From Candidatus Kapaibacterium sp. (GTDB taxonomy: Bacteria > Bacteroidota > Ignavibacteria > Kapaibacteriales > UBA4661), in NCBI GenBank assembly GCA_025358765.1, contig JANYIG010000236.1:1-44675 (forward strand): a DNA stretch of 44,675 bases, given 5' to 3'. Both the position numbers and the translations under genes were made by a program. Numbering within the stretch: position 1 is the stretch's first letter; each line of letters starts with the position of its first letter. Shown piece by piece: positions 42,385 through 44,675 of the stretch. The notes beneath the pieces were generated by a model, which did no database searches, was not told the DNA's origin, and worked only from the letters and a program-made list of their open reading frames with translations.

Positions 42385-42505
42385 ATGTCATTAAGTTAAG
42401 CCCCTCACCCAAACCCTCTCCCAGAGGTAGAGGGCTTCAAACCTCCCTCCTTCTCCCTTTGGGAGAAGGTCGGGATGAGGGAGATTCCTTAACTTAATGC
42501 CATTG
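42385..42505. mobile_element. non-autonomous MITE-like insertion flanked by 13-bp direct repeats
   Basis: Direct repeat ctcatcagaccca at 42372-42384 and 42506-42518; internal ends cattaagttaag (42389-42400) / cttaacttaatg (42488-42499); core of 'ccctctcccagagg'/'ccttctccctttgggagaagg' palindromes. Confidence 0.7.
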
Positions 42506-42595: not shown

Positions 42596-42823
42596 TCATA
42601 GTAGTAAGGTGGCTTGATAGATAAGCGGTTTGTAACGGGCGGGCGGAATGGGTTTGTTTGCCGCTTGTGCCGCATCCAACCATGCTGTTTTTGCTTGCAA
42701 GACTTCCCGCAAGGCTTCATCAGGTGTTGCCCCAAACGCGGAGCAATGCTGCAAGTCGGGAATGTCAGCAATATAGCCCTCGTCTTCCTCACTGTAAAAT
42801 ATGTTGATGTGGTAATCACCCAT
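42596..42823 (-). CDS. hicB: HicB-family antitoxin
   Basis: MGDYHINIFYSEEDEGYIADIPDLQHCSAFGATPDEALREVLQAKTAWLDAAQAANKPIPPARYKP. 8-nt overlap with hicA stop. Confidence 0.9.
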   Translation of the reverse strand: MGDYHINIFYSEEDEGYIADIPDLQHCSAFGATPDEALREVLQAKTAWLDAAQAANKPIPPARYKPLIYQATLLL

Positions 42824-43073
42824 GGTTTTCCTCCAGTTGTAGATTGTATCGTTCCACAAGAGACAAAAATTGTTTGATTTGATATGGCTTTGCTTCACCG
42901 TGAACATTCTGCAAATTAACGAGTTCCGAAACGGCATCGTGAACAAAAATATGATGACTTCCGCTCACGCGCTCTAAACGAAATCCAAATGCTACCACAA
43001 GTGCCGTCATATCCGAAAAACGGACATTCTTTTGATTTTGCAGAATCGCCGCCAAGAGCTTACGCTTTTTCAT
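42816..43073 (-). CDS. hicA: HicA-family toxin (putative mRNA interferase)
   Basis: MKKRKLLAAILQNQKNVRFSDMTALVVAFGFRLERVSGSHHIFVHDAVSELVNLQNVHGEAKPYQIKQFLSLVER; GSHHI motif. Confidence 0.9.
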   Translation of the reverse strand: MKKRKLLAAILQNQKNVRFSDMTALVVAFGFRLERVSGSHHIFVHDAVSELVNLQNVHGEAKPYQIKQFLSLVERYNLQLEENHG

Positions 43074-43191: not shown

Positions 43192-44610
43192 TTAAATGCT
43201 CTCATTCTGCCTTGTTCGTGCTTTGTTTTTTTGCTGTTTTTTCGATTGTGCCTCCGCCGTCAGCGGCGCAGTATATTTTTCGTACAGCTCAAACAACAAC
43301 GTGATCCGCTCCTCGTCCGACGCAAACGCCTTCCCAGCGCGATAACACTTCTCTACCGCTCTGTCCAAGTCCTGATGCGCTTTCACGAGCGCAGGCGGCA
43401 TCGTGAGCGGGTCGTAGAGGTCGGCAAGCGAAGACTGCGGGAATGCCGAACGTGCATCCAGCACTGCCTGCGCTGAACGCTCCACGGCTTGCTTCTGTGC
43501 GTCGGTTGGGCTTTCTGCCCACGGAAAATTGTTATACACAATCGTGTTGGAGTAACGGTAATCACTCTTTAAGCGCCCACACACGTGCTTTACCCACGTG
43601 ATATGCAAGAGCGAGGAGAGTACGCCGAAGTGGTAGAGTGTGGCATTGGGGAGGATACGACAAAGATCGGTTGCAATAGTATCTTTAGGCATGAAACCAA
43701 TCGGGATGTACACTCTTCTTTCGGAGGAAACACCAGGTACAAGTAAATACGGTGCTTCTACGTGTCTAATTTCTCCAAAAAGTGTTGCGAAAGCAGCTAA
43801 ATCTTGGGTAGCTTTACGTATACTTTTCAATCTGTGCTTTCTTACAGCTTCGACCCTTCTCATTACTTCTGGCATTGCGCGTAAATCACTTGGCAACACA
43901 TCTTTAAGCCATAAACACCAGCGCTCTTCATTATTTATGAATTCTTGTGAACCATACAAACGGCGTAAGAATTTTTCTGATCGTGGTTCTTTAGCGACAA
44001 GTTCAACCTTTTCTGCTGAGTTTAGCAATAAATTACCACCGTCATTAGCCATACTTCCATAGATAAGTTCCGGCACATTGCAAAGCGGCGTAGAACGTGC
44101 TTGCACGAGGGTATTGCCCGCCGAAATGAGATAGGGACTGATGTTCGGCACTTCGCTCACGTGCGGCTCGGCTGTGGGTGTTTCGTATTCGTAGAGCAGA
44201 CGTGGAGCAATATTCTTAGCTCCCTCGCCCTTTGGGAGAGGGTTGGGGAGAGGGATTAACGCCTCGGCAATCCGTTGTAAAACACCCTGTATGTTTTCCA
44301 ACACTTCATTATTCCAGAATCGAATCACACGAATACTCTGATTATTTAGCCATTCTGTGCGCTGCATATCTAATTCTTGCTGTTCAGGTTCTCCGTGTCC
44401 ACTTCCGTCAAGTTCAACAGCAAGATGGGATTCGTGGCAGTAAAAGTCAAGGATGTAGTTTCCAATCGGGTGTTGACGACGAAATTTTGCCTTATGTAAC
44501 TGGCGGTTTCTGAGGAGCGACCATAAGAATTTTTCTGCTGTGGTTGATATTTTTCTCATTTCACGTGCTTTTGCGAGAAGAAGCGGTGGTAGAACAAGAC
44601 GTTTACCCAC
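43192..44610 (-). CDS. chimeric ORF: N-terminal DUF559 nuclease-like domain, repeat-encoded linker (PLPNPLPKGEGAK), C-terminal target-recognition/C-terminal part of a MmeI-like type IIG restriction-modification protein
   Basis: 'AREMRKISTTAEKFLWSLLRNRQLHKAKFRRQHPIGNYILDFYCHESHLAVELDGSGH...RTEWLNNQSIRVIRFWNNEVLENIQGVL' is DUF559. 'NISPYLISAGNTLV...PELIYGSMANDGGNLLL...PYLLVPGVSSERRVYIPIGF...NATLYHFGVLSSLLHITWVKHVCGRLKSDYRYSNTIVYNNFPWAESPT...SLADLYDPLTMPPALVKAHQDLDRAVEKCY' is MmeI-like TRD plus C-terminal domain. Confidence 0.85.
   Translation of the reverse strand: MGKRLVLPPLLLAKAREMRKISTTAEKFLWSLLRNRQLHKAKFRRQHPIGNYILDFYCHESHLAVELDGSGHGEPEQQELDMQRTEWLNNQSIRVIRFWNNEVLENIQGVLQRIAEALIPLPNPLPKGEGAKNIAPRLLYEYETPTAEPHVSEVPNISPYLISAGNTLVQARSTPLCNVPELIYGSMANDGGNLLLNSAEKVELVAKEPRSEKFLRRLYGSQEFINNEERWCLWLKDVLPSDLRAMPEVMRRVEAVRKHRLKSIRKATQDLAAFATLFGEIRHVEAPYLLVPGVSSERRVYIPIGFMPKDTIATDLCRILPNATLYHFGVLSSLLHITWVKHVCGRLKSDYRYSNTIVYNNFPWAESPTDAQKQAVERSAQAVLDARSAFPQSSLADLYDPLTMPPALVKAHQDLDRAVEKCYRAGKAFASDEERITLLFELYEKYTAPLTAEAQSKKQQKNKARTRQNESI
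44221..44255. repeat. palindromic repeat, left copy bounding the DUF559 cassette
   Basis: tccctcgccctttgggagagggttggggagaggga; inverted relative to the copy at 44617-44645. Confidence 0.75.
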
Positions 44611-44616
44611 GCCATA

Positions 44617-44645
44617 TCCCTCCCCAACCCTCTCCCAGAGCAGGG
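44617..44645. repeat. palindromic repeat, right copy bounding the DUF559 cassette
   Basis: tccctccccaaccctctcccagagcaggg; shares CCCCAACCCTCTCCCA with the reverse complement of 44221-44255. Confidence 0.75.
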
Positions 44646-44675
44646 CTGCTAAGTTCTAAAAGTTCTTTGAAAAAA

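Follow-up and report, generated by a model that had tools for sequence, protein, structure and literature searches.

A DUF559 nuclease gene between inverted triplex repeats: a small, probably mobile cassette found in-frame within bacterial genes

Introduction

Near the end of a contig of Candidatus Kapaibacterium sp., a gene for a DUF559 nuclease lies between two inverted palindromic repeats and is fused in-frame to part of a restriction-modification gene. This arrangement raises the question of whether the nuclease gene and its repeats form a unit that moves, and how such a unit would enter a coding sequence. The window analyzed here is the whole stretch of 44,675 nucleotides (contig C254), and the contig ends at position 44675. 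We conclude that it holds a single decayed copy of a cassette that is small and probably mobile, a DUF559 nuclease gene flanked by inverted triplex repeats.

Results

Structure of the cassette

The features distinguished at the right end of the window are as follows:

43192..44220 (-): MmeI_TRD and MmeI_C domains of the host gene (Pfam E 1e-76 and 8e-34; alignment with PDB 5hr4)
44222..44254 (+): triplex motif (TM) copy 1 (0 mismatches to the motif of Holder 2015)
44257..44610 (-): DUF559 (PF04480), a PD-(D/E)XK/Vsr-like nuclease (Pfam, alignments A1/A3, matches to PDB 3hrl and I-Bth0305I)
44618..44636 (-): TM copy 2, inverted, inner stem and tail only (inverted-repeat score, sequence)
44640..44675 (+): left end of an insertion sequence (IS), terminal inverted repeat GCAGGGCTGCTAAGTTC, in the hairpin loop of TM copy 2 (100% match to contigs C244 and C146)

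The open reading frame at 43192-44610 (-) encodes DUF559 and then, in-frame, MmeI_TRD and MmeI_C; an earlier note, made from the sequence alone, had assigned these identities to one frame and Pfam agrees, with no intein domain detected in the frame. The DUF559 domain (E 2e-37; 123.9-127.8 bits against a gathering cut-off of 20.6) starts with a GTG codon at 44610 and has kept all of the invariant residues of the family. TM copy 1 comprises the hairpin CCCTCGCCC-TTT-GGGAGAGGG followed by the third strand TTG-GGGAGAGGG; its tail points toward DUF559 and it is translated as PLPNPLPKGEG. TM copy 2 retains its inner stem CCCTCTCCC (44628-44636) and the tail, and lacks the outer stem because the IS terminal repeat begins at 44640. 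The claim of the earlier note that DUF559 lies between inverted palindromic repeats is confirmed at 44222-44254 (+) and 44618-44636 (-), as is its translation of the inner repeat, PLPNPLPKGEGAK. Inverted matches across the gene reach a score of 18.5 at best, and none of 339 control positions reaches 14. The element is thus a TM-DUF559-TM cassette of about 0.45 kb, with the hairpins outside and the third-strand tails inside.

Identity of the repeat

Its sequence identifies the repeat as the G/C-rich intrastrand-triplex motif (TM; Holder 2015, PMC4666352), which was published for E. coli as CCCTCNCCC-N3-6-GGGNGAGGG-N3-GGGNGAGGG and has also been named TMECO, PIT motif and box C. Hairpin and third strand are the same in both, and copy 1 of the window matches the motif without mismatch. 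TMs have been reported in more than 260 genomes and associated with genome instability, and triplex folding was described in vitro for the E. coli motif (PMC4666352). The 2015 survey found no mobility functions near TMs, and nucleases are absent from its text; the copies of E. coli K-12 were reported as always intergenic and never near mobility genes (PMC4666352), whereas those described here bracket DUF559 and occur in-frame within genes.

Among the loci compared, the third strand fits the purine stem better as a mirror than as a direct repeat in 60, against 13, the mirror being what a fold-back purine triplex requires. At loci with non-canonical stems, the third strand fits its own stem with a score of 6.09, versus 5.44 for shuffled stems (sd 0.10). 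Overlapping k-mers are not independent, so the strength of these results is to be taken loosely.

Host gene and insertion sequence

The host part follows the cassette in-frame and joins it at MmeI residue ~586 (PDB 5hr4), between the methyltransferase and the TRD. Intact MmeI-type homologues are present in relatives (L037-L041) and are up to 75% identical over this part; the junction reads '...GFAAKEVLETAPRLLYEYETP' in one of the genomes compared (G007) and '...PKGEGAKNIAPRLLYEYETP' in the window. The N-terminal half of such a restriction-modification protein, a part that the earlier note had recorded as missing from the frame, does exist at the end of another contig (C185), where MmeI_N, hel and most of Mtase were found. 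This fragment stops ~45 residues before the junction, with the TRD and C-terminal domains on the window contig, and a physical join between the two contigs is therefore lacking.

One MmeI homologue (L040, G003:C24) carries an in-frame TM-derived peptide, CPHPTLSQRERASE...RLPSPSGRGS, in its methyltransferase part and no DUF559. The repeat is of the same kind as that of the window and occupies another position than the window insertion.

A full copy of the IS is found at locus L002 (1203 bp, inverted ends, DDE_Tnp_1 transposase), with no target-site duplication seen around that copy. Its end is repeated in contigs C244, C146, C300 and C209, and it is because of this recurrence that the window contig breaks at 44675. 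The second coding sequence that had been proposed to run into the right repeat is not a gene: FFKELLELSSPALGEG... is an antisense reading of the end of this 1.2-kb IS. The first stop upstream of DUF559 in its frame also falls within the IS, so prior to the IS insertion this frame ran uninterrupted through the right repeat, and the IS, rather than DUF559, probably split the mmeI-type gene. The interpretation of the earlier note is thus supported in part: there is strong support, drawn more from related loci than from the window alone, for a mobile DUF559 cassette that inserted in-frame into an MmeI-type gene, and none for a second coding sequence that runs into the repeat.

The IS, with its GCAGGGCTGC ends, lies in a TM hairpin loop (44637-44675; the L002, L003 and L011 copies were also compared). 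The flanks of other copies resemble half hairpins, CCCCCTTGATAAAG in L003 and TTTCACAAGGGGGAGG in L011, so this IS may target palindrome loops.

Association of DUF559 with triplex motifs

The loci surveyed were DUF559 loci of the same class plus 80 from a genome collection searched with a consensus protein; they are the best-scoring ones, related by descent, and many come from metagenome-assembled genomes (MAGs). TMs were called with the published motif at up to 5 mismatches, and 339 shifted positions in the same loci served as controls. A TM lies within 200 bp of DUF559 at 94 of the 111 loci (2/339 controls), and TMs flank the gene on both sides at 67 (0/339). In 52 of these 67 two-sided loci the nearest TMs are oriented tail-inward. 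Inner distances cluster around medians of 54 bp upstream and 19 bp downstream of DUF559. No recognizable TM was found at 17/111 loci.

Chance palindromes in GC-rich DNA were ruled out as an explanation by shifted positions and by control loci encoding GIY-YIG nucleases. An inverted-repeat score of at least 14 is reached at 64/112 DUF559 loci and at 0/339 shifted positions; two-sided hairpins occur at 91/111 DUF559 loci, compared with 6/29 GIY-YIG loci and 8/226 shifted positions. Going by the titles of their records, the two-sided cases span at least 11 phyla: Chloroflexota, Pseudomonadota, Atribacterota, Gracilibacteria, Nitrospirota, Elusimicrobiota, Verrucomicrobiota, Planctomycetota, WOR-3, Cyanobacteria and Bacteroidota.

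Among 197 genomes of the class, TMs are present in 74/129 with DUF559 and in 8/68 without it, so that 8 of the 82 TM-bearing genomes have no detected DUF559. The corresponding odds ratio of 10 (Fisher p ~1e-10) ignores kinship and partly counts the flanking TMs themselves; all association statistics given here are descriptive, and the p-values carry no phylogenetic correction.

In the genome of the window, canonical TMs occur on both sides of DUF559 only at the window copy, and no near-identical copy of the cassette was found elsewhere in it. The earlier expectation that other DUF559 copies of this genome would share the repeat was not borne out, as L011 and the divergent L013/L014 lack canonical repeats. 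Despite these copies, the association across genomes is very strong.

Could the arrangement have been created by chimeric contigs joined at short repeats, or by annotation? Many of the loci are from MAGs, and the window contig itself ends in a repeat. However, the same arrangement is found in single-contig and isolate genomes (G164, G200, G012, Leptolyngbya PCC 6406), in thousands of complete E. coli genomes at the ycjD locus, and in-frame, which makes an artefact extremely improbable.

The DUF559 nuclease

Five candidate catalytic residues, E26, D55, E66, H72 and D81 (alignment A3), are invariant in 54 sequences including that of the window. Searched against the PDB, the family profile matches 3hrl (E 1e-33) and the homing endonuclease I-Bth0305I (3r3p; E 7e-7). 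The AlphaFold2 model (pLDDT 88) likewise matches 3hrl and I-Bth0305I, the latter with a TM-score of 0.74-0.75, and Vsr weakly. The catalytic domain of the EDxHD/Vsr-like I-Bth0305I is thus homologous to DUF559 by sequence and fold, and the logic of a mobile gene is common to both. The PDB annotates I-Bth0305I as a mobile-intron protein, whereas for the cassette no intron and mostly no intein was found, and its ends are TMs.

At one locus of the same genome as the window (L010, G000:C46), an intein with DUF559 as its nuclease domain interrupts a DNA methylase at 'VLDPT/C...HN/CGSGTT' (slashes mark the insertion), a DNA methylase motif. The intein itself carries an inserted TM-like repeat.

The DUF559 gene of E. 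coli is ycjD, situated between sapF and fabI (Pfam E 1e-49); its product has already been assigned to the PD-(D/E)XK superfamily, with a link to Vsr (PMC1189080). In strain KE47 the ycjD domain is followed after 12 bp by a perfect TM (L217, 3319-3353), with another beyond it; in the L222 strain the first TM has decayed (the protein ends in RRSPSP) and the second is intact. From its map position we infer that TMECO no. 9 (1351204-1351239, 29 min; PMC4666352) corresponds to this region. ycjD and the eef operon are alternative alleles at one locus (PMC12817139), and passages of a Legionella study describe transposase/DUF559 segments as recombination hot spots (PMC12308824). No link of DUF559, including YcjD and its Caulobacter relative VsrA of the same Pfam family, to triplex repeats was found in the open-access literature searched; subscription journals lie outside this scope and may hold a prior mention.

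The cassette as a unit

The best direct sign that the cassette is a unit comes from one genome (G090) with two paralogous DUF559 cassettes that are 85.5% alike over 490 bp. The match starts slightly outside the upstream hairpin and stops shortly past the downstream one; further out the two loci share no clear homology. The segment hairpin-tail-DUF559-tail-hairpin therefore appears, from this alignment, to be what was duplicated. In the paralogue search, other same-genome copies of DUF559 were mostly 65-75% alike, and a clean unit was obtained from G090 only. No clear target-site duplication of the cassette was found.

Presence/absence polymorphism at a fixed site was observed in the uvrC genes of a related genus, not at the window locus. 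At a single position, uvrC of this genus contains a short linker (empty site; G084, G075, G183 and G226), a TM array without DUF559 (G102 and G179) or TM arrays with DUF559 between them (G202, G157 and G093). All of these states are in-frame and they are scattered over the uvrC tree, in which one supported pair (G093/G226) differs in state and most other forks are weak. The filled alleles have TM doublets on both sides of DUF559 that resemble the gene-less doublet of their relatives, as would be expected had a cassette recombined into an existing TM site.

Pfam searches of long open reading frames located DUF559 inside uvrC, metH, hsdR, hsdM, hsdS-like, mmeI-like, GH2 and hrpA-like genes, and also inside genes for methionyl-, valyl- and leucyl-tRNA synthetases. 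By comparison with solved structures, the insert of MetRS lies in the linker ahead of the tRNA-binding domain, and that of LeuRS borders the editing domain, between 1h3n residues 236 and 243. HsdR has two sites; the loop 'FIVFEK...KLAAYHQ' is occupied by DUF559 at L105 and L119 and by nothing but a TM-derived peptide at L058 and L061. A nuclease insert of ~150 residues can therefore be accommodated in-frame by genes for aminoacyl-tRNA synthetases, UvrC and MetH. SahH (L134) and EPSP synthase (L091) were rejected as host genes; the cassette lies between neighbouring genes there, so both were left out of the intragenic count.

The LeuRS gene of a Prevotellaceae MAG (L149) has a second in-frame insert of ~57 residues (84-140 aa), at 1h3n residue 144.

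Discussion

A different origin of the association would be that DUF559 is a host Vsr-like DNA-repair gene and TMs are unrelated fragile repeats that attract rearrangements and insertions nearby. Caulobacter VsrA has indeed been interpreted as a mismatch-repair nuclease (PMC12907096), and the link of TMs to genome instability (PMC4666352) points the same way. This explanation is improbable, since the association is two-sided, oriented (52/67), of near-constant distance and spread over at least 11 phyla, and since DUF559 is found in-frame within a range of unrelated genes and its presence varies at one uvrC site. The two-sided, oriented arrangement is left unexplained by a repair gene and by an assembly artefact alike.

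The main rival to the reading that we prefer (homing-like spread, below) is a transposon-like unit, in which TM-DUF559-TM moves as a piece, the TMs act as its terminal inverted repeats, and strand transfer is the work of DUF559 or of a host factor; gene-less TM pairs would then be internally deleted derivatives mobilized in trans, comparable to REPINs and RAYT. Such a unit would account for ends that coincide with the hairpins at two non-homologous loci (the G090 pair) and for the tail-inward geometry, which recurs without a gene between in 4/5 of the E. coli TM pairs (Table 1 of Holder, PMC4666352). We nevertheless consider it unlikely: neither a target-site duplication nor a transposase fold was found, the nearest fold is that of a homing endonuclease, and the resemblance of the TM doublets in filled uvrC alleles to the gene-less doublet fits recombination into an existing TM site.

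REP/REPIN sequences with RAYT show a similar plan, a gene between inverted short palindromes whose gene-less copies are dispersed. The likeness to the cassette lies in exactly these two traits. RAYT is, however, a Y1 HUH transposase, whereas the cassette gene is DUF559, a nuclease of the PD-(D/E)XK fold and Vsr-like, and the palindromes here have a mirror third strand. Rickettsia palindromic elements are also palindromic repeats inserted in-frame within protein-coding genes, and are not known to carry a nuclease; their sequence differs from TM.

On the strength of these sequence comparisons, from which movement of the cassette is inferred, we think it fairly probable that the cassette is a homing-like mobile element, spread in the manner of a homing-endonuclease gene. 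Homing-like spread is favoured because the enzyme family has a homing endonuclease among its members, presence of the cassette varies at fixed sites, gene-less TM arrays occur at the same site, and the cassette lies between TM arrays. DUF559, as the putative mobility enzyme, would nick or break a site that carries a TM or lacks the cassette, and the cassette would then be copied in by repair, with the TMs serving as homology or as ends. Solo TMs and TM pairs could be landing sites or non-autonomous remains of the cassette. In the window, the cassette would have inserted in-frame at the methyltransferase/TRD junction of the MmeI-type gene, and the IS would later have entered one hairpin loop.

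It is possible, though we advance this only tentatively, that such cassettes constitute mobile elements of a new class, found in at least 11 phyla, in which a stand-alone Vsr-type nuclease uses intrastrand-triplex DNA (the structure, not only the sequence) as its target or as element ends, gives rise to the triplex repeats dispersed in bacterial genomes, and enters essential genes in-frame without a splicing domain. Hundreds of genomes contain the triplex/box C repeat, and DUF559 is a candidate enzyme for its spread. A consistent nuclease partner makes the question of how TMs spread directly testable, and E. coli K-12 already holds both parts, ycjD and 23 TMs. The association further suggests what this very common DUF may do.

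Other elements of the window

Two further TMs, with no DUF559, lie to the left of the MmeI fragment:

42402-42434 (-) and 42449-42481 (+): second TM pair, tails outward, within a short palindromic element

This element (42400-42490) has inverted ends, ATTAAGTTAAG...CTTAACTTAAT. Similar MITE-like elements were seen at L004, L007, L008 and other loci, several of them at contig ends of the same genome. Downstream of the MmeI fragment, the window also encodes a HicA-like toxin (42816-43073, -) and a HicB-like antitoxin (42596-42946, -).
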